A program made the translations under genes and the position numbers. The notes below the pieces were generated by a model, which was not told the DNA's origin, ran no database searches, and saw nothing but the letters and a program-made list of their open reading frames with translations. From NCBI GenBank assembly GCA_029941885.1, contig JAPYTP010000025.1, positions 1 through 44,855 on the forward strand: a stretch of DNA of 44,855 nt, written 5' to 3'. The DNA comes from Myxococcota bacterium (lineage in GTDB: Bacteria; Myxococcota_A; UBA9160; UBA4427). Shown one piece after another: positions 8,851 to 42,746 of this stretch (positions within the stretch are counted from its first letter, which is position 1; each line of letters starts with the position of its first letter).

Positions 8851-9138
8851 TCAGTCTTCGTACTTGTTCATGACGGGAGCACCGTCCATGTAGCCACCGA
8901 GCGCCTTGCCGACATCGCCCATCGCGGCGGAGGTCATGTGCGCCTCGAGGTCGGCCTCGCTCGCCCAACTCTCGACCAGAACGAAGCGGGTATCATCGTC
9001 GCAGCTCTTGAAGAGGTCGTACATTTCACAGCCCGCATCCTCGGCCCGAACCCGCGCGAGAGCAGGGCCCGCGGCGGCCTCGAATGCATCGGCCTCGCCT
9101 TCCTTGATGGGGAGTTGAACGGTCAATCGAATCGACAT
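8851..9138 (-). CDS. Antibiotic biosynthesis monooxygenase (ABM) domain protein, putative quinol monooxygenase
   Basis: 95 residues forming a single dimeric alpha/beta barrel: MSIRLTVQLPIKEG, ADAFEAAAGPALARVRAEDA, CEMYDLFKS, RFVLVESWASEADLEAHMTS and MGDVGKALGGYMDGAP. This matches YgiN-like ABM proteins, which oxygenate quinols or act on small aromatic substrates without cofactor. A good ribosome site (GAGAGGAAACAAACCG) precedes the ATG at 9138. It is the first gene of a pair with DUF1330 and divergent from the SDR gene. Confidence 0.88.
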   Translation of the reverse strand: MSIRLTVQLPIKEGEADAFEAAAGPALARVRAEDAGCEMYDLFKSCDDDTRFVLVESWASEADLEAHMTSAAMGDVGKALGGYMDGAPVMNKYED

Positions 9139-9314
9139 CGGTTTGTTTCCTCTCTTTCCAGGGTGCTTCGGCTGGGATCGCCGCGTGGCGAGCGAAAGGG
9201 CACGCGAATTCGGCGGTCGGGAACTTTCGACGGTAACAAAATGAGCCCGGCAAGCGCCCCCTTCTGGGGGGTGCGGGGTCTCGAATATGGCCTGATCAGG
9301 GGCGCCGAGCGGGT

Positions 9315-29888: not shown

Positions 29889-30533
29889 ATGTCCAGGCGA
29901 CCCTTTCGAAGACTGCTCGCACGCGTCTTCCTGGCCGCGACGGGATGGAGACCGGATGGCGCTCGACCCCAGCCTCGCCAGTACATTCTGATCGCGGCTC
30001 CCCACACAACGAACTGGGATTTTGCCTACCTGCTCGCCTTCGCGGAGTATTTCGAACTCGAGATCAATTGGATGGGCAAGCACACGCTCTTCAAGCCGCC
30101 CTTTGGCGCCATCATGCGAGCGCTGGGCGGAATTCCGGTCCGACGTCACAAGCGTGAGAACCTCGTCGAAACCCTCGCCGCACTCTTCGACGAGTACGAG
30201 GATCTCGGACTCGTCGTGCCCGCGGAGGGAACCCGCGACCACGTCGACCACTGGAAATCCGGCTTCTATCACATCGCTCGTGCCGCGAACGTGCCGATCG
30301 TGATGAGCTACCTCGACTATTCGGAGAAGCGCGGCGGCTTCGGTCCCGGCTTTCTTCCCTCGAGCGACCTGCGCAAGGACATGGATACGGTGCGCGCCTT
30401 CTACGAGGGCAAACAGGGCAAATACCCTGAACTCTTCGGCCGGATCCGGCTTCGCGAAGAGGACGACGGCGAATTGGAAGCGAAGCGGTCTCCGACAGAA
30501 ACCGCGACGGAAACCTCGAACTCGTCAGCGTAG
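29889..30533 (+). CDS. Lysophospholipid acyltransferase (PlsC-like)
   Basis: 214 residues. The acyltransferase HX4D motif appears as APHTTNWDF, followed by WMGKHTLFKPPFGAIMRALG, GIPVRRHKRENLV, and the PlsC EGTR motif as VVPAEGTRDHVDHWKSGFYH. VPIVMSYLDYSEKRGG follows. A short hydrophobic N-terminus and basic surface suit a membrane-surface enzyme that acylates lysophosphatidic or another lysolipid. GGAGG lies upstream, in the loop of a GTGAAG...CTTCAC repeat at 29861-29886. The last 9 nt overlap the converging DUF3604 gene. Confidence 0.88.
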   Translation: MSRRPFRRLLARVFLAATGWRPDGARPQPRQYILIAAPHTTNWDFAYLLAFAEYFELEINWMGKHTLFKPPFGAIMRALGGIPVRRHKRENLVETLAALFDEYEDLGLVVPAEGTRDHVDHWKSGFYHIARAANVPIVMSYLDYSEKRGGFGPGFLPSSDLRKDMDTVRAFYEGKQGKYPELFGRIRLREEDDGELEAKRSPTETATETSNSSA

Positions 30534-32798
30534 CTCGACCAGCGCCGTGACGGTCCCGCTTCTGGATCGCGCGGGATGGTCCACGAAGATCGGTGACGAC
30601 CAGGCGCGCTCGCGAACGTCGTCCAGACAATCGTCGCCGGTTTCGCACAATTCGATCGACTCGACCTCGCCCTCGGCGTTTCGTTTCGGTCGAAGCGGAT
30701 CCCCGAGAATCGCCGGACGGGCCTCTTCGAGGGCGCGCACGTAGTAGAGCGTGTCGCGACCCCGATCGACGAAATCCTCGTCGCTGAACCGAATCGTGCA
30801 TCCCTCGGGCGTCGCGTCGCAGTCGTAGCGCCGCCACGGATCCTCGATCAGAGGATCGACGTTCTCGCCGATCTCGATCCGGGTCGTGATCCGAACGACC
30901 TCGATCGCGACGATCGGCCGGCGCAAATCGCTCGGGAAATAACATTCGTTGTGGCAGAGGTCCGCGATCCGGTCGCCGCCGAGTCCCTCGCGACTCCAAT
31001 CGGGACAACCCGGCTTCGGTTCGAAGGAACCCAGGGCCCGCACTTCGAATTCCGGAGCACCCGATAATTCGACTTCGCTCCCCATCGGCGCGGCAGAGCC
31101 GTCGGGGGAATTCAGCAGGTCGAACCAGAGCAGGATGCGCGGGCCACTGGTCGCATAGACCTCTCGACGATTCATCGCGTCCCAGAGATCCCCCCGTGCC
31201 CGACTCGCGGAGTGGACCGCCGCCAGGCCGCCGGGGTACAGGAAGGCCTGGGTGCGGCCATCGTTGCCACGCACCCCGATCGCCCCCTGGTCCGGCCGCA
31301 TCGGCATCTGGGGATCCTCCATTGCCACGCCACCGATGATTCCGGCGGCACCTCCACCGGGGACGTCGTTCACATCGGTCATCAACCCACGATCGACGGC
31401 CTTGTAGCCGACACCGGGCCGGGCCGAATGCTCATCGCTCGAAGCCACGAAGCCGTAGCGAAAACGCAGGGGGTCCTCGTTCTCGTCGAGGATGTCGGGA
31501 TGCGCCAGGGACATCCCGTACTGAACCGACTCCCGCGGCCTGTACGAGAAACTCGGCTTGAAACAGTCGCGACATTGGCCGCAATCGAGCCACTCTTCGG
31601 GCTCTGCATCGGGAAAGACACGGCCCGGCCTCGTGTAGGCCTCCGTCGCGTAGGACCTGGCGAGATCGACACGCCGATCGCACTCCGCCTTGTCGAGGCC
31701 GCCACAGCGACCTCGCATGATCTCGCCCGCCTGCCAACAGCAGGGCAGGTAGTCCTCGGTCGGTGCCGGACAGATCCGATTCCCCGAATCATCGACCTCC
31801 CATTCACGCCAGCGGCGATACTGCTCGGAATTGCCGTGGCCAGACATGATCTCGACGAGCCGCATCTTGTCTGCGTCGTAGTTCTCTGGCGCGAGATGTT
31901 TGTCCATGGTCGTCGTCGCTGGCGTGTATACGCCCCAGGCGGTCCCGTGTGGAATCTCGAGAACCTCGCCTCCCCATTCGTCGAGCTTGCGATGGAGGAT
32001 TTCCGGCGTCGGCGCCACCTCGAGGCAGCCCGCCGGAAGATCGGCGCTCGAAATCCCATCCGGGCAGACAGGGCTCTCGAGCAGCCTGTCCGCGTACGTG
32101 ACATAGTCGGAATAGCGCGACCAATGCGTGGGATCGATCCACTTGAGCTGGGAAATCGCCTTCGCCGTCTGCAACATCGCTGTGCGCTTGTCCTCCGCGG
32201 CGATCGGTCGCAGGGGAAGGAGATCGTCCGCGGTTTCCGGGAACACCAGACAGCGATGACCGTAGTGCGCCTCGGGTGTCAGGCCGGCCTGGCTCCACTC
32301 GAATCCCATGAAAGCAACGAGATCCGGGTTCGCCGGATCCCCCGCGCGGGCGTTGCAGTCACGGACGCTCTCTTTGGAGAGTCGGTAGTGGAGCGGCCGC
32401 AGCGATTCCGCGTGATCGGTCAGCGCGAAGAAATCGAGGTTCGCGCAGTAACGGGCGAAATCGCACGCATCCGCCGGCGGGTGGGCCCCCTCGCCGCCCA
32501 CCGCGGGGAGCGAAAAGAGATAGGCATCCTGGGAGAAAGTCGTGTGGACATGGAGATCTCCGAAGAGGATCTGCTTGTCGGGCAATCCACGTGTCGATCC
32601 GCTTCGCTCGGCGAGGGCGAGCACGCCGGCCTTCTGACGCGCACCGCTCTCCAAGATGACCTCCGCCGGCTTGGCGTCCCCCTGGATCTCGTAGGTTTCC
32701 TGGGGCGGTTGCTGGCCACACGCCGCGAACAAGACCATCAGAACGAGCAACGGCGCCCTTCCGGTAAGCCACTCAAACCTCGATTCACGCGCTGACAT
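30525..32798 (-). CDS. DUF3604 domain lipoprotein, PHP-like metal hydrolase fold
   Basis: 757 residues. The N-terminus is a lipoprotein signal, APLLVLMVLFAACGQQPP, with Cys at about residue 26. The DUF3604 domain fills the rest: QILFGDLHVHTTFSQDAYLF (DxHxH metal motif), LDFFALTDHAESLRP, ILHRKLDEWGGEVLEIPHGT, FVASSDEHSARPGVGYKAVD, and MNRREVYATSGPRILLWFDL. Several CxxC-like pairs (PCCWQ, CGQCRDC) are present. The family is common in marine and soil bacteria, has a PHP-like amidohydrolase look, and no established substrate. Probably faces the periplasm or outer membrane. ATG at 32798 follows a GGAG. Confidence 0.88.
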   Translation of the reverse strand: MSARESRFEWLTGRAPLLVLMVLFAACGQQPPQETYEIQGDAKPAEVILESGARQKAGVLALAERSGSTRGLPDKQILFGDLHVHTTFSQDAYLFSLPAVGGEGAHPPADACDFARYCANLDFFALTDHAESLRPLHYRLSKESVRDCNARAGDPANPDLVAFMGFEWSQAGLTPEAHYGHRCLVFPETADDLLPLRPIAAEDKRTAMLQTAKAISQLKWIDPTHWSRYSDYVTYADRLLESPVCPDGISSADLPAGCLEVAPTPEILHRKLDEWGGEVLEIPHGTAWGVYTPATTTMDKHLAPENYDADKMRLVEIMSGHGNSEQYRRWREWEVDDSGNRICPAPTEDYLPCCWQAGEIMRGRCGGLDKAECDRRVDLARSYATEAYTRPGRVFPDAEPEEWLDCGQCRDCFKPSFSYRPRESVQYGMSLAHPDILDENEDPLRFRYGFVASSDEHSARPGVGYKAVDRGLMTDVNDVPGGGAAGIIGGVAMEDPQMPMRPDQGAIGVRGNDGRTQAFLYPGGLAAVHSASRARGDLWDAMNRREVYATSGPRILLWFDLLNSPDGSAAPMGSEVELSGAPEFEVRALGSFEPKPGCPDWSREGLGGDRIADLCHNECYFPSDLRRPIVAIEVVRITTRIEIGENVDPLIEDPWRRYDCDATPEGCTIRFSDEDFVDRGRDTLYYVRALEEARPAILGDPLRPKRNAEGEVESIELCETGDDCLDDVRERAWSSPIFVDHPARSRSGTVTALVELR

Positions 32799-32836
32799 CA
32801 CTCCGCCCCCTCGCCTTACACCGCCCCGGCGGGGTC

Positions 32837-32975: not shown

Positions 32976-33548
32976 GTGAACGATTCCGAACAAATCGCCG
33001 ATTCGGCCGACTCGAGGGAACCTTCCGGCGAATCACCCCCCCTCGCGTGTGTGCCGAGTCTCGATCAGATCCAGGCCGCCCAGCGCGGTGACCTCATCGC
33101 CATGGGCGACGTGCTCGACGGACTGATGCCCTGGGTCGGACGACTCTGCGGATCGATCGCGCTGGACGCCGGTCCCGATGCCGCCCAGGACACCTTGATC
33201 CAGGTGATGCGCGATCTGAAGGGCCTGCGCGATCCCAGCGCGCTTCGTTCCTGGGTCCGACGGATCGCGACCCGCGAAGCCATCCGTCACGCCGAGCGCC
33301 GGCGTCGCGAGCCCCTGGTCGATCATTTCGAAAACAGCGAGGGACGGCTGCTCGATCCGGGCCTGCAGGCCGACGTGAAGAGTGTGCTCGCCGAACTCCC
33401 GCCCGACCAGCGCGCCGTTCTCGTCCTGCGAGATCTCGAAGGACTCTCCGAATCCGAGGCCGCGACCGAAATGAACGTCGCTCGCGGAACGATCAAATCC
33501 AGACTCCATCGCGCCCGCGATGCGTTCCGAAAGAGGTGGCCGACATGA
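32976..33548 (+). CDS. ECF-type RNA polymerase sigma factor
   Basis: 190 residues with this start. Region 2 is seen as VLDGLMPWVGRLCGSIALDA, DAAQDTLIQVMRDLKGLRDP and SALRSWVRRIATREAIRHAE. Region 4 is VLAELPPDQRAVLVLRDLEG, LSESEAATEMNVARGTIKSR and LHRARDAFRKRW, with the helix-turn-helix. There is no N-terminal region 1, so this is the ECF group, which usually controls envelope or stress genes. GTG at 32976 is the likely start because everything before residue 42 of the longest frame (GTG at 32853) looks unlike protein. Its stop overlaps the start of an SRPBCC gene (ATGA). No typical anti-sigma gene is adjacent. Confidence 0.85.
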   Translation: MNDSEQIADSADSREPSGESPPLACVPSLDQIQAAQRGDLIAMGDVLDGLMPWVGRLCGSIALDAGPDAAQDTLIQVMRDLKGLRDPSALRSWVRRIATREAIRHAERRRREPLVDHFENSEGRLLDPGLQADVKSVLAELPPDQRAVLVLRDLEGLSESEAATEMNVARGTIKSRLHRARDAFRKRWPT

Positions 33549-34063
33549 GCCCCGACGATCCAACGCTCGATCCCGACCCGAACGGAACGCTCGATCGACC
33601 GATCGACGCCCACCGTTATGCGTGGCCCCTGGCCGAACTCGACCCGGTTTCGCGAATGCGCGCCCTGGCAGGCGGACTCCCCTACGCGGCGACCGACGAG
33701 ACCGTCTTCGAGGTCCCCTTCGATCGCTTCTGGTCGTATGTCACGGACTTCGAAAACAACACCGCGAAATTCGAGGGAACCGTCGGAAGAGCTCGAATTC
33801 TCGAGCGCAGGGGCGATCGGCTCACGCTCGAAGCTCGCGGGCCCGTAATTGGCCCTTGGATGCGATTCGACGTCGTGGTGCGGCCCGGATGGTGTCTGAT
33901 GCGAACGCGAATCGGAGAGATCGGGATGGCCGCAAGACCGGAGGGTGAGGGATCGACTCGATTCTTCCATTTCGAGGGATCCTCGATGTTGGGTCGGGTC
34001 CTGCGCCCCTTCTTTGCCTGGAATATCCGACGGGATTTCCGAAGGTTGCGAGCGCTGCTCTAG
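33545..34063 (+). CDS. SRPBCC (START/polyketide-cyclase-like) protein coupled to the sigma factor
   Basis: 172 residues. A lipid-binding SRPBCC pattern begins about residue 50: TDETVFEVPFDRFWSYVTDF, AKFEGTVGRARILERRGDRL, then beta-rich GPVIGPWMRFDVVVRPGWCL and a C-terminal helix-like LRPFFAWNIRRDFRRLRALL. The fold makes a hydrophobic pocket for a small ligand. The ATG at 33545 overlaps the sigma-factor stop (ATGA), so translation is coupled; a GTG at 33536 is also possible. A ligand-binding partner in the position where anti-sigma factors usually sit is notable. Function as ligand sensor for the sigma factor is inference. Confidence 0.7.
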   Translation: MSPDDPTLDPDPNGTLDRPIDAHRYAWPLAELDPVSRMRALAGGLPYAATDETVFEVPFDRFWSYVTDFENNTAKFEGTVGRARILERRGDRLTLEARGPVIGPWMRFDVVVRPGWCLMRTRIGEIGMAARPEGEGSTRFFHFEGSSMLGRVLRPFFAWNIRRDFRRLRALL

Positions 34064-34209: not shown

Positions 34210-35007
34210 TTGAAACGTCTACTGAACTTCACGAGGTCGCTAGTCGCGCTGCTGGCGATCCCGACGGCGCTCGTCTTCTTCTATCAACACCGTCTGCTCT
34301 ACCCAGCCCCACCGATTGCGCTTCCCATAAACCTTCCACCCCACGTCGAGCGGATCGATCTCGGAGAGAGCTATGCGCTGCTCCTGGAATCCCACGCCGG
34401 CGAGGCCCACCGAAAACCGCTGATCATCTACGCCCACGGCAATGGCGAAGCCGCCGTCCAATGGGTCGACGAGTTCGACGGAGTCCTTTCTCGAGGCATC
34501 TCCGTGCTGCTGGTCGAATACCCGGGATATGCCGGCGCGAGTGGGAGCCCAACGCTCGGATCGATTCGAGAGACGTGGCTGGCGGCCTATGACGCGCTGA
34601 CCAAACGGCCGGGAATCGACGTGAAGGCCATCATCGTCTACGGCCGCTCGATGGGTGGGGGAGCGGCTGCGCTGCTCGCGGCGGAGCGGCCGGTCGCCGC
34701 CCTGGTCCTCGAATCGACTTTCACGACCCTGGCCCGGCTCGTCTCCGAGAAGGGCATCCCCAGCTTCTTGCTGCGCGATCGCTACGACATCGAAGCCACG
34801 GTTCGAAGTCTCGACGTTCCCGTCTTCGTGTATCACGGCACCCAGGACAGATTGATTCCCTCGAGCCATGGTCGGGCCCTCGCGACGGCGGCGAAGGATT
34901 CCACCTTCGTCACGGCAACGTGTGGCCACAACAGCTGCCCGAGGCCGTGGGACGACCTCTTTGTCTTCCTCGCCGAGAAGGCTGGAATCGCGACCGGCTT
35001 ACCCTAG
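34210..35007 (+). CDS. Alpha/beta hydrolase with N-terminal membrane anchor
   Basis: 265 residues. An N-terminal hydrophobic stretch SLVALLAIPTALVFFYQHRL is an uncleaved-looking anchor. The alpha/beta hydrolase core has IIYAHGNGEAAVQWV (oxyanion), nucleophile elbow VYGRSMGGGAAALLAAERPV (Gly-Arg-Ser-Met-Gly), catalytic Asp in VYHGTQDRLIPSS and His in CGHNSCP. This fits membrane-anchored BEM46-like serine hydrolases. TTG at 34210 follows GGATGAG. Upstream ATGs at 34197 and 34203 are out of frame. TACGAT at 34130 may be its -10. Its end overlaps ilvA by 9 nt. Confidence 0.85.
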   Translation: MKRLLNFTRSLVALLAIPTALVFFYQHRLLYPAPPIALPINLPPHVERIDLGESYALLLESHAGEAHRKPLIIYAHGNGEAAVQWVDEFDGVLSRGISVLLVEYPGYAGASGSPTLGSIRETWLAAYDALTKRPGIDVKAIIVYGRSMGGGAAALLAAERPVAALVLESTFTTLARLVSEKGIPSFLLRDRYDIEATVRSLDVPVFVYHGTQDRLIPSSHGRALATAAKDSTFVTATCGHNSCPRPWDDLFVFLAEKAGIATGLP

Positions 35008-38157: not shown

Positions 38158-41100
38158 TTAGGAGGGATCCAGAACTCCGAATGCCGAGGACACGTGACTG
38201 ACGCCCCGTGAGAAGGCCAGCTTGCCATCTTCCACGATGACCATCGCGGCGGGAATCATCAGCAGGGTGAAGAAAGTCGCGACGAGCACCCCAAATCCGA
38301 GAGAAATCGCCATCGGGATCACGAACTGCGCCTGGGCCGACTGTTCCAGCATGACCGGAAGCAGACCGGCGAAGGTCGTCGCCGAGGTCAGCATGATCGG
38401 TCGGAATCGGCGGCCGCCCGCCAGAACCGCCGACTCACGCACACTATTCCCCTCGTCGCGCATCCGATTCATGAAGGACACGAGCACGAGGCTGTCATTC
38501 ACCACGACCCCGGCACACGCCATGATCCCGATCATCGACAGGAAGCTCATGTGATAGTTCATGACCCAGTGGCCCAAGACAGCTCCGACATAGCCAAAGG
38601 GAACCGTCAGCATGATGACGATTGCCTGGCTGTAGGAGCGAAGCGGAACGGCGATGAGAATGAAGATCGAAAGGACGGCGACGAACGCGGCGATCCGCAG
38701 GCTACCCATCGCCTCGATCCTCTCCTTTTGCTCCCCCTCGAACCCCCAGCTCACGGAGGGATGGAGAGCGATGATTCCCGGCATGACATCGGTTTCGATC
38801 GCTTCAGCGATCTCGACCGCGTTGGCCTGGTGCTCGTCGAGGTCCGCCGTCACTTCGACACGACGCTCACCATTGATCCGACGGAGCGAAGCCGCTCCTC
38901 GACCCAATTCGGCACTCGCGACCGAAGGAAACGGGACCGCCCGCCCGTCCGGCAGCCGGATTCGAAGCGTCTCGACATCGCGGAGCGAACGACGTTCGTC
39001 GGCGGGATATCGAACCATCACCTTGACCTCGTCCGGACCACGCTGGATTCGCTGTACCTCCGCACCGTAGAAGGCCTGGCGAACCTGTCTGCCGACATCC
39101 TGCACCGACAGGCCCAGGCTCTCCGCCTCGGGGCGGATCGAGATCTGGAGTTCTTGCTTGCCGTCGCGATGGGAATCGCGGATATCGCTCACACCGGGAT
39201 AGCGCGCGAGGGCAATCGTGAGATCATCCGCTGCTGATTTCAATTGCTCGATATCGTCGCCACGCAGTTCGATCGCGATCGGATCGCCGAAGCTCCGTCT
39301 CTCTCCGCTATAGGTGAGTTCCTCTGCTCCCGGAATCGCCCCGGTCAGCTCGCGCCAACGATTCGCGATCTCCTTGGCACCGATCTCGCGCTCCTCCGAG
39401 GGGCTGAGTTCGATCGTCACCTGCCCCAGATGGGGTTGGCCAAGACTCCCCGGACGGTCGATTGGACTCGTCCCGCGGTGCGCCCCGACCATCGAGAGCA
39501 CGTGCTGAATGATCGGTGGATCGCCAGGCCGCGCGCGTGCCACGAGTTCGTCGCGCAACTCGTCGAGCGCCGCGTTCAACCGGGCGACCGCATCCTCGGT
39601 TTCGTGTGCGGGCGTCCCGAGCGGCATCGTGATCCGCGCGTAGGCGTTGTCCGCTTCGGTCGAGGGCATCATCACCGATTTCACTCGGCCGCCCGCGACC
39701 AGCCCGAGAGCGACCATGAAGACCGCGGCGGCAACCGCGATCGTCAAGTACCGCCATTCGACCGCACTCTCGACCGCAGGCCGGTAGGCATTCGCGAGGA
39801 ACCACTCGAGCCCTCGGTTGATCCGCGCCTGAACCCGCGCCCATGCCTTCGAGATCGGGAATCGCGGTTCCTGACCGACGCCCGACCCGTGGCCCAGGTG
39901 GGAGGGCAGGACGAGCTTCGATTCGATCAACGAAAACAAGAGGGCAACGCACATCACGCCCCCCATCGACTTCGCCATGAATTGTGCATCGCCCTCGATC
40001 AGCGCGAAGGGAGCAAAGGCGGCGATCGTCGTCAGCACCCCGAAGACGACGGGGGTCGCGACTTCCTGGGTCCCGCGAATCGCAGCGCCCATCGGATCGT
40101 CCGGAGTCTGCTCCTGATGTGTGAAAATGTTTTCGCCCGTCACGATGGCGTCATCGACGAGGATGCCGAGTGCCATGATGAAGGCGAAGACCGTCAGGAT
40201 ATTGATGTCGATGTCGACGATCGGCATCAGCAAAAGGGCGCCCGCGACGGAGACGGGCAACCCCATCGCGACCCAGAAGGCGACACGGAATTTCAAGAAG
40301 AGCGCGAGCAGCGCGATCACTAGAAAGAAGCCCATGAGAGCATTGCCGAGCATCATGTCGATTCGTTGGCCGAGATATTTTGAGTCGTCGTCCCAGACCG
40401 TCAATTTCGCACCGACGGGCAATTCGAGCCGAGCCTCCTCTAGATAGGCGTGGACCTTGTCCGCGACGGCCAGTGCCTGCTGCTCGCCGACGCGGTAGAC
40501 CTGCACAAAGACCGCCCGTTCGCCGTCGAAGTTCGTTGTCTTGATATTCTCCTCGAAGCCGTCCACGACACGCGCGATCTGTCCGACCGTGATCCGCGTT
40601 CCGTCGGCCCGGGTGAGCAGCGGAATCGATTCGAACTCAGTCCCCCAATAGGCCTGATTGTCGGTGCGCAACAGGATTTCGCCTGCATCGGTCCGAACGG
40701 TGCCGCCGGGAATGTCGATCGAGGTCCGCCGAATCGCATCGACGACGTCGTCGAAGCGCAGGTCGTAGCTCTGCAGCGCACCCTCGGAGATCTCGATCGA
40801 GATCTCATAGGGACGCGTCGCGGCGAGATCGACCTGGGACACGCCGGGCAGCCGTGCGATCTCGTCCCGGATATGCTGGCCGAGTGAGGTCAGACTCTTC
40901 TCGTCGAGCGGACCATGGATCGCGATGTCCATCACGCCCATCCGCAACTGGAGTTCCGAAACGATCGGCTCCTCGATCTCCTCGGGAAAGGTCGTAATGC
41001 CGTCGACTCGACTCTCGATCTCATCGAGGGCCTTCGAGAGTTCCGCGCCCGGAGCCAATTCGATCATCAGGTTCGTCGCGCCTTCATTGGCTGAGGACGT

Positions 41101-41343
41101 CAGTTCCTCGATTCCCTCGACGTCCTCGATCTCCTCTTCGATCCGTATGGTGACCGACTTCTCGATCTCTTCAGGCGACGACCCGGGATACACGACGGTG
41201 ACCGACACGTAGTTGAAATCGAAATCGGGCATGATCGTCTGCTTGATGCGCGGCGCGGTCATCAGGCCACCGATCAAGATCGTGGCCATCAGGAGATTCG
41301 CGGCTACATGATTCTCGGCGAACCATGAAATCGCGCGATTCAT
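38158..41343 (-). CDS. Efflux RND transporter permease (AcrB/MexB-like)
   Basis: 1061 residues, the usual size. MNRAISWFAENHVAANLLMA starts TM1; a periplasmic head follows (DFNYVSVTVVYPGSSPEEIE, EIEDVEGIEELTSSANEGAT). TM4 has the proton-relay acids in LGILVDDAIVTGENIFTHQE. AFVAVLSIFILIAVPLRSYS and GVVVNDSLVLVSFMNRMRDE mark the second half; the Lys of AcrB TM10 is Asn here, as in many non-AcrB RND pumps. RND permeases expel lipophilic compounds from the inner membrane or periplasm with a periplasmic adaptor. It overlaps the adaptor by ATGA (41340-41343). No outer-membrane TolC gene is adjacent. Confidence 0.93.
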   Translation of the reverse strand: MNRAISWFAENHVAANLLMATILIGGLMTAPRIKQTIMPDFDFNYVSVTVVYPGSSPEEIEKSVTIRIEEEIEDVEGIEELTSSANEGATNLMIELAPGAELSKALDEIESRVDGITTFPEEIEEPIVSELQLRMGVMDIAIHGPLDEKSLTSLGQHIRDEIARLPGVSQVDLAATRPYEISIEISEGALQSYDLRFDDVVDAIRRTSIDIPGGTVRTDAGEILLRTDNQAYWGTEFESIPLLTRADGTRITVGQIARVVDGFEENIKTTNFDGERAVFVQVYRVGEQQALAVADKVHAYLEEARLELPVGAKLTVWDDDSKYLGQRIDMMLGNALMGFFLVIALLALFLKFRVAFWVAMGLPVSVAGALLLMPIVDIDINILTVFAFIMALGILVDDAIVTGENIFTHQEQTPDDPMGAAIRGTQEVATPVVFGVLTTIAAFAPFALIEGDAQFMAKSMGGVMCVALLFSLIESKLVLPSHLGHGSGVGQEPRFPISKAWARVQARINRGLEWFLANAYRPAVESAVEWRYLTIAVAAAVFMVALGLVAGGRVKSVMMPSTEADNAYARITMPLGTPAHETEDAVARLNAALDELRDELVARARPGDPPIIQHVLSMVGAHRGTSPIDRPGSLGQPHLGQVTIELSPSEEREIGAKEIANRWRELTGAIPGAEELTYSGERRSFGDPIAIELRGDDIEQLKSAADDLTIALARYPGVSDIRDSHRDGKQELQISIRPEAESLGLSVQDVGRQVRQAFYGAEVQRIQRGPDEVKVMVRYPADERRSLRDVETLRIRLPDGRAVPFPSVASAELGRGAASLRRINGERRVEVTADLDEHQANAVEIAEAIETDVMPGIIALHPSVSWGFEGEQKERIEAMGSLRIAAFVAVLSIFILIAVPLRSYSQAIVIMLTVPFGYVGAVLGHWVMNYHMSFLSMIGIMACAGVVVNDSLVLVSFMNRMRDEGNSVRESAVLAGGRRFRPIMLTSATTFAGLLPVMLEQSAQAQFVIPMAISLGFGVLVATFFTLLMIPAAMVIVEDGKLAFSRGVSHVSSAFGVLDPS

Positions 41344-42746
41344 GAATCGTCGGCCTCGATGAGGCGCAACGACATCCCGTCCGAATAGATGCGCAGGGGC
41401 GAAATCAAGACCCAATCTCCCGTTTCGAGTCCACCATCGATCACCACCCGATTCCGGTCGCGACGAAGGATCGACACGTCACGCACGCGAAGGCGACCCG
41501 CCTTCCCGCGAAGTGCCTCGGAGCCCTCGGTCGGTTGCAGGTCTTCGCTCGCGTCCCGCTCTTCGAAGGGTTCTGCGACGGGTTCCGCGATGAAGACTCG
41601 ATTCCCGTCGCGAAGGGCCATCAGCGGCAACACGAACACGTCGTTGACCGCCCGCCCTTCGATTTCAGCGGTTACGAACAGCCCGGAGGGAAGCGGCACC
41701 CTCGATCCGGCGGCCGCCACGAGGGAGCCCCGATCGTTCGGTGCCCCATCCAGATTGGCAATCCCGCCGAGCGCATAGGGATCGTCGACGCGCGCGACCA
41801 CGTGGAGCATGCGGGTCCGCTCGTCGATCGCGGCCTCCGCGCGAACCAATCGCGCCGGCCAGACGAACTCCCGTCCACCGAGTCGGCCCGATAGGGCGAC
41901 CCGCGCTCCTTCGACTGTTCCCAGCCTGGCCCCCTCGAGTTCGACGTCGAGATAGGCGAGATCGTCGGTTTGGATCGGCAACCGCACCTCGGCGTAGTCG
42001 ACGGCAAAGATCCGCCCGAGCTTCGTCCCCGGAGACACGAAGCGACCGACATCGACACTGCGCTCGCGAACATGACCCGTGAACGGCGCGCGAACGACGG
42101 TTCTTTCGAAATCGAGTTCTGCCTGCTCGAAGGAAGCGCGGGCTTCGGCGAGGAATGCCGAGGCCACGAGTTCTCGATTCTCGAACTGCTCGAGGTCGGA
42201 CGCGCTGGCCGCACCACGCTGTTCGAGCAGACGTCGGCGGTCCGCTTCCGAAGAGGCGAGTCGTGCCTCGCTCTCTCGCAGCGTCACGTTGGCGCGAGCC
42301 CGATCTCGTGCGATCCGATATTCCCGTTGGTCGAGACGCAAGAGATCGTCGCCCGCCTCGAAGAGTCCGCCCACGACGAGATCGTCTGAGACCCAGACGA
42401 CGCGTCCGCGGACCTCCGCCACGAGGTCACTCTCGGTTCGAGGCGCGACCGTCCCACGTGCTTGGACGCTGAGACGCAGATTCTCCGAGCTTACGGTCAG
42501 TACGCGGACGAGCGGGGACGGGGGCGCTAGATCGCGGGTCTGCGGCTTTTCTCGCGTGGCGACGAGCACCGCGTAGATGGCAAAGCCGATCGAGACGGCC
42601 ACCAGGGGCAGCACCCAGCGAAGCCGCGATCGGCGAGCGGCCTCGTCTCCGCGCAGGGCCGCCAGCTGCTGGCTCACCTCTTTCTCGGCCTTGGCGCGCT
42701 TCCCATCGGGATCGCGGGGCTCGAGTGAGACCGGTTCGATGGTCAT
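41340..42746 (-). CDS. RND efflux periplasmic adaptor (HlyD/MexH-like membrane fusion protein)
   Basis: 468 residues. One N-terminal anchor (VLPLVAVSIGFAIYAVLVAT) is followed by the lipoyl-like entry RLSVQARGTVAPRTESDLVA, EVRGRVVWVSDDLVVGGLFE, and a coiled-coil hairpin (ARANVTLRESEARLASSEAD, RRRLLEQRGAASASDLEQFE). Beyond it are FERTVVRAPFTGHVRERSVD, DVGRFVSPGTKLGRIFAVDY and the beta-barrel and proximal domains. It joins the permease to an outer channel. The ATG at 42746 forms ATGA with a possible upstream ORF. The permease start overlaps its stop (ATGA), indicating coupled synthesis. Confidence 0.92.
   Translation of the reverse strand: MTIEPVSLEPRDPDGKRAKAEKEVSQQLAALRGDEAARRSRLRWVLPLVAVSIGFAIYAVLVATREKPQTRDLAPPSPLVRVLTVSSENLRLSVQARGTVAPRTESDLVAEVRGRVVWVSDDLVVGGLFEAGDDLLRLDQREYRIARDRARANVTLRESEARLASSEADRRRLLEQRGAASASDLEQFENRELVASAFLAEARASFEQAELDFERTVVRAPFTGHVRERSVDVGRFVSPGTKLGRIFAVDYAEVRLPIQTDDLAYLDVELEGARLGTVEGARVALSGRLGGREFVWPARLVRAEAAIDERTRMLHVVARVDDPYALGGIANLDGAPNDRGSLVAAAGSRVPLPSGLFVTAEIEGRAVNDVFVLPLMALRDGNRVFIAEPVAEPFEERDASEDLQPTEGSEALRGKAGRLRVRDVSILRRDRNRVVIDGGLETGDWVLISPLRIYSDGMSLRLIEADDS

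Follow-up and report, generated by a model that had tools for sequence, protein, structure and literature searches.

Conserved pairing of an ECF sigma factor gene with an SRPBCC protein gene suggests direct control of the sigma factor

INTRODUCTION

Genes that lie directly downstream of an ECF sigma factor gene and are coupled to it by an ATGA overlap mostly encode anti-sigma factors. We analyzed a stretch of 44,855 nucleotides of myxococcotal DNA (contig JAPYTP010000025.1), referred to here as the window, in which the gene at this position encodes a protein with a START/cyclase-like fold. A previous reading of the window, made from sequence only, proposed that this protein holds the place of the usual anti-sigma factor and that an intracellular lipid or small hydrophobic molecule could act on the sigma factor through it. 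Are the two genes a cognate pair, and does the second protein control the first? The comparative evidence described below suggests that the SRPBCC protein directly controls the ECF sigma factor.

RESULTS

An ECF sigma factor gene overlaps the gene of an SRPBCC-fold protein

The identity of the first protein as an ECF sigma factor is secure. It has Pfam matches to Sigma70_r4_2 (E 1.2e-17) and Sigma70_r2 (E 3.4e-7), scores above the cut-offs for PF04542, PF08281, and PF04545, and reaches 64.0 bits against TIGR02937 (cut-off 42.9). With 165 aa and sigma-70 regions 2 and 4 only, it has the makeup of the ECF group (group 4). Its stop codon (TGA, 33546-33548) overlaps the ATG of the partner gene at 33545 on the forward strand, forming ATGA, and in other myxococcotal pairs that overlap, GGTGG is kept ahead of the SRPBCC start. 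The positions of these and other features are given in Table 1.

The sequence-only reading began the sigma gene at GTG 32976, which is unlikely: the conserved promoter at 33017-33043 falls inside that stretch, and all eight myxococcotal loci have a GTG in frame 24 nt 5' of the codon that begins a conserved AAQxGD motif (the AAQxGD codon). The true start is probably this GTG, at 33051 in the window; because a GGAACC element and the conserved GTG occur at matching places in the eight loci, 32976-33050 is more likely promoter than protein. With the promoter almost abutting the GTG, the sigma mRNA would be nearly leaderless.

Table 1. Features of the sigma-SRPBCC locus in the window
Feature	Position	Strand	Basis
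Predicted autoregulatory ECF promoter: -35 GGAACC 33017-33022, N17, -10-like CCCT 33040-33043	33017..33043	+	8-locus conservation
ECF sigma factor, 165 aa, revised (probable) start GTG	33051..33548	+	region 2/region 4 matches; GTG conserved in 8 loci
Codon of near-invariant sigma Cys33 (region 2)	33147..33149	+	alignment
Shine-Dalgarno-like AGAGGTGG for the SRPBCC gene, within the end of the sigma gene	33532..33539	+	sequence
SRPBCC/START-fold partner (predicted), 172 aa, ATG to TAG, ATGA overlap with the sigma gene	33545..34063	+	ORF, family profile, predicted fold
Conserved N-terminal extension of the SRPBCC protein, W27-G43, candidate sigma-contact element	33623..33673	+	column conservation; model helix 34-43
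Codon of invariant SRPBCC Cys117	33893..33895	+	alignment

In the database records that we encountered, the partner is annotated as "hypothetical protein" or "SRPBCC family protein." The Pfam match of the window copy is weak and below threshold (Polyketide_cyc2, E 1.4e-3), and its score for PF10604 is 19.4 bits (cut-off 27.4). Within its family, 18 of 40 members have a Pfam match at E ≤ 0.01 (best 5.6e-9), and a search with the family profile finds SRPBCC structures (2d4r, E 1.6e-5). The AlphaFold model (pLDDT 91.7) shows the SRPBCC helix-grip fold with seven strands and a C-terminal helix (residues 150-171), and an extra helix (residues 34-43) precedes the core. The best Foldseek match of this model in the PDB is the TcmN aromatase/cyclase (E 3e-7); further best matches are TTHA0849, MSMEG_0129, and the abscisic acid receptors PYL2, PYL3, and PYL9, and the aromatase-cyclases ZhuI and WhiE-ORFVI are also among the nearest solved folds. 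As judged by predicted fold, the partner belongs to the SRPBCC/START superfamily. Reading frames, domain matches, and modeled fold thus bear out the earlier description of an ECF sigma gene coupled by ATGA to an SRPBCC gene. Neither the window partner nor 39 aligned relatives had a Pfam or NCBIfam match to an anti-sigma domain (ZAS, RskA/RseA type, or NepR). Likewise, the window pair had no SnoaL match, and sigma factor and partner are separate ORFs at the pair loci.

Among the neighboring genes, we considered the alpha/beta hydrolase downstream (34210-35007) as a third member and rejected it: its type differs from that of the actinobacterial hydrolases, and no equivalent was seen directly after the pair in myxococcotal relatives. 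Divergent from the sigma gene is a gene for a DUF3604-family protein (30525-32801, reverse strand), before which no GGAACC promoter was seen; DUF3604-like proteins ("FFGDTHVHTTFSFDAWGQG") also lie 2 to 3 kb from the sigma gene in genomes G025 and G027 (locus L013, 12340-14787; locus L015, 11364-13271). The window further holds what is by sequence an ordinary gene for a large RND-type efflux transporter (1,085 aa; 38158-41415, reverse strand).

The two genes occur together in two phyla and on plasmids

In a set of 98 related genomes, eight encode the SRPBCC protein next to a sigma gene, the window's own genome being one of them; one additional SRPBCC match (G096/L009, E 8e-4) had no sigma neighbor and was dropped as chance. 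Close orthologs of the sigma factor were confined to genomes having the SRPBCC protein (41 relatives). Surveying more widely, we found the pair in 8 of 379 Myxococcota genomes, all from one order, and in at least 5 of 396 sampled Actinomycetota genomes, a lower bound obtained with nine candidates scored per genome.

A scan of species-representative genome contigs returned nothing with the single window protein as query and 38 SRPBCC loci with the alignment as query, 33 of them in Actinomycetota. A sigma gene is adjacent at 36 of these 38 loci, mostly in tandem, often convergent, and once with the SRPBCC gene first (L122). The exact 4-nt overlap (ATGA or GTGA) is kept in 26 of 30 tandem pairs from the two phyla, which argues that the pairing is not chance. 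A profile search that did not use the scan pattern recovered four further actinobacterial pairs, all adjacent and all in tandem. On plasmids, the sigma factor and the SRPBCC protein as queries led to one shared set of 13 close records, every one paired, and beyond these records sigma similarity falls from about 60% to 36%. Exceptions to strict adjacency are L100 and L123, where the SRPBCC gene has no adjacent sigma gene, and the convergent-type sigma genes L128 and L129, which have no directly adjacent SRPBCC gene and another SRPBCC gene about 1 kb away.

This is the genome-neighborhood survey that the sequence-only reading had proposed. Far from being found once or standing apart in relatives, the two genes are together in almost every relative, whether myxococcotal (eight genomes), actinobacterial (many genomes), or plasmid-borne, and this adjacency supports the view that the SRPBCC protein occupies the usual anti-sigma position. 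On comparative evidence, then, the sigma factor and the SRPBCC protein are a real, widespread, cognate pair.

The pair diverges and decays together

Pairwise distances among sigma factors and among SRPBCC proteins are strongly correlated (r = 0.86; permutation maximum, 0.18), a value to which shared ancestry contributes. Eight Streptomyces loci hold two paralogous pairs, in which sigma type and SRPBCC type co-segregate, their distances not overlapping. The convergent type is a single clade in the sigma tree and in the SRPBCC tree, apart from one orphan SRPBCC protein. Because three gene arrangements keep the pair, the pairing is more than co-transcription. In G006 (Myxococcales UWMA-0330; L014, about 9090-9250), the sigma gene carries a large internal deletion and the start of the SRPBCC gene is frameshifted; by its sequence, this pair is decaying together. 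No other gene was constant at the pair loci as a candidate anti-sigma factor.

The Streptomyces double loci L105, L113, and L152 are flanked by genes for an alpha/beta hydrolase, a class II DAHP synthase, and a 4'-phosphopantetheinyl transferase; L152 has a carboxylesterase gene too, with an NRPS gene further out. A link of these loci to secondary metabolism is possible.

Each protein carries a conserved cysteine, and the SRPBCC protein a conserved N-terminal segment

Cys33 of the sigma factor is present in 48 of 49 aligned pair sigma factors, compared to none of 24 scored control ECFs, and Cys117 of the SRPBCC protein is present in all 51 aligned copies. Both occur in the four independently found actinobacterial pairs. 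We considered whether the invariance of Cys117 is an artifact of a scan pattern that contains a cysteine and rejected this, since copies found without the pattern carry the cysteine too.

The N-terminal extension of the SRPBCC protein has the family consensus WPxAELDPVRRLRVxAA and is its best conserved segment, with a mean column conservation of 0.76 compared to 0.61 for the core. We read this segment as a candidate sigma-contact helix. The signal may be a ligand bound in the pocket; because of the paired invariant cysteines, a thiol or metal signal is also possible.

A predicted promoter is shared by the sigma gene and a few other genes

At all eight myxococcotal pair loci, GGAACC lies 58 to 62 nt 5' of the AAQxGD codon, and CCC(T) follows 17 to 18 nt further on. 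As a positional control, GGAACC reached at most one of eight loci in 2,000 shuffles, and it was found upstream of none of 33 control ECF domain hits. The sigma gene thus has the predicted GGAAC-type -35 element of an autoregulated ECF gene.

For genome scans, we used the strict motif GGAACCTT-N15/16-CCCT, which recovered the sigma promoter in every intact pair genome tested, plus a few other genes over a chance background. A gene for a small membrane protein (four segments predicted by eye) is preceded by the motif in trans in G002 and in the window's own genome (contig C7, GGAACC-N17-CCCT, GGAACCTCTTTCCATATCGGCTCCCCT); in G046, it has the motif and is divergent from the sigma gene. The motif or a close form also stands before FAD oxidoreductase genes in G025 and G027 and at two places in G007. 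Several actinobacterial loci show a related element 5' of alpha/beta hydrolase genes, sigma genes, and genes for DUF3995 membrane proteins, as well as 5' of the SRPBCC gene where that gene comes first. As read from this shared promoter, the membrane proteins, alpha/beta hydrolases, and FAD oxidoreductases form a small putative regulon. The motif is absent before the membrane-protein homologs of the pair-less genomes G013 and G022. Matches inside genes were rejected as background, and genome-wide the motif exceeds its reversed pattern by about 1.4- to 2.4-fold (20 versus 14 and 24 versus 13 matches), a modest excess because of which it is not a clean genome-wide predictor. This small excess weakens the regulon part of our interpretation, as does the absence of the motif before the membrane-protein homologs in G025 and G007.

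In G006, the membrane-protein target has a degraded motif. Sigma-type promoters stand back to back at L016 (1183-1238) and L122 (4957-4960), one for the sigma/SRPBCC genes and one for a small membrane protein; the two divergent elements adjoin and make up a near-perfect palindrome (AAAGGTTCCGCGGAACCTTT in L016).

DISCUSSION

We consider it fairly likely that the pair is a two-protein switch in which the sigma factor has the SRPBCC protein as its cognate regulator in the cytosol, most probably an anti-sigma factor gated by a ligand or a thiol. The sigma factor would direct transcription of its own operon and a few targets from GGAACC-N16/18-C(C/T)C(T/C) promoters. We infer that the co-translated SRPBCC protein physically binds the sigma factor with inhibitory sign, keeping it inactive by means of the conserved N-terminal helix and possibly of the cysteine pair. 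A small hydrophobic molecule that enters or leaves the pocket, or a modification of the cysteine of the SRPBCC protein, would then set the sigma factor free. Release would lead to positive feedback and to expression of the membrane protein, the alpha/beta hydrolase, and the FAD oxidoreductase. An autoregulatory promoter implies positive feedback, hence the need for a brake.

The anti-sigma reading is favored by the fold of the partner, which it shares with receptors such as PYL that bind a protein under the control of a ligand. In plant PYR/PYL abscisic acid receptors, a START-type pocket controls binding to a protein partner. The predicted fold is similar (TM-score near 0.5, about 10 to 14% identity), but the target of PYR/PYL is a phosphatase, whereas that of the SRPBCC protein would be a sigma factor; the likeness is thus an analogy of action rather than family membership. 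A more specific version, in which a START-fold anti-sigma factor acts like a bacterial PYL receptor in two phyla and senses via the one invariant cysteine of each protein (a disulfide, metal, or adduct at the sigma-SRPBCC interface), is speculative and in our view doubtful. The anti-sigma reading is weakened by the four loci that break strict adjacency (L100, L123, L128, and L129) and by the fact that SRPBCC proteins are often enzymes or carriers.

The latter raises an alternative that we regard as rather unlikely: the SRPBCC protein may be an enzyme or a lipid or polyketide carrier within the sigma regulon, working on the molecule that the hydrolase or oxidoreductase also acts on and making no contact with the sigma factor, which would be controlled otherwise, for example by transcription alone. 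TcmN, ZhuI, and WhiE-ORFVI lie close in fold, and alpha/beta hydrolases and FAD oxidoreductases appear to be co-regulated with the pair. However, these enzymes and the membrane proteins vary by lineage while the sigma factor and the SRPBCC protein stay together, and convergent pairs, which are not in one operon, still co-segregate as cognate pairs. The best conserved part of the protein is a family-specific N-terminal segment, and no other candidate regulator is constant. TcmN, ZhuI, WhiE-ORFVI, and TTHA0849 have the SRPBCC fold in common with the partner and are its best sequence and fold matches, but the partner's gene is linked to a sigma gene, not to polyketide synthase genes, and the protein carries the family-specific extension and the invariant Cys117.

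It is improbable, but consistent with coupled synthesis and paired conservation, which fit activation equally well, that the SRPBCC protein is instead a positive partner, a ligand-bound co-activator or a chaperone needed by the sigma factor, since the sign of the effect cannot be read from sequence. Activating C-terminal extensions are known in other noncanonical ECFs, and that of ECF42 is essential (PMC8999054). Against a positive partner, autoregulated sigma genes usually need a brake. The general prevalence of anti-sigma factors among downstream ATGA-coupled partners likewise favors inhibition. Finally, despite its patchy distribution (one myxococcotal order and a small part of the sampled Actinomycetota), chance or passive co-inheritance of two unrelated neighbors is contradicted by the survey and most implausible for a pair kept through three gene orders, two phyla, and plasmids.

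Compared to known systems, the anti-sigma arrangement proposed here combines familiar and unfamiliar parts. A review of noncanonical ECFs lists ZAS, NepR, CfrX, and Asp23-type proteins as soluble partners, along with SnoaL fusions, and an SRPBCC partner is absent from it (PMC8999054). Like these systems, the pair has a cytosolic partner expected to hold the sigma factor, an ECF-type -35 element, and predicted autoregulation; unlike them, its partner consists of one SRPBCC/START domain plus a short helix at the N terminus, with no matched anti-sigma domain. ECF41, ECF56, ECF205, ECF294, and ECF295 also associate a small-molecule-pocket domain with an ECF sigma factor, but there the domain is SnoaL-like (NTF2 fold) and fused C-terminally, whereas the window sigma factor has no C-terminal extension and its START/SRPBCC partner is a separate protein. 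The distinction that the sequence-only reading drew from ECF41-type factors therefore holds. We found no description of an ECF sigma factor with an SRPBCC, START, or polyketide cyclase partner in the literature searched, to which the 2021 ECF classification did not belong; the group may already be numbered there.

Many ECF sigma factors have no recognizable anti-sigma factor, and their signals are unknown. If our interpretation is correct, conserved soluble partners with the SRPBCC fold would form a further class of sigma regulators, one with a ligand pocket. ECF signaling would then be linked to small molecules of intracellular origin, hydrophobic or reactive, and a ready-made small-molecule switch would be at hand. 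The presence of the pair in culturable Streptomyces and Actinopolymorpha makes these proposals directly testable.
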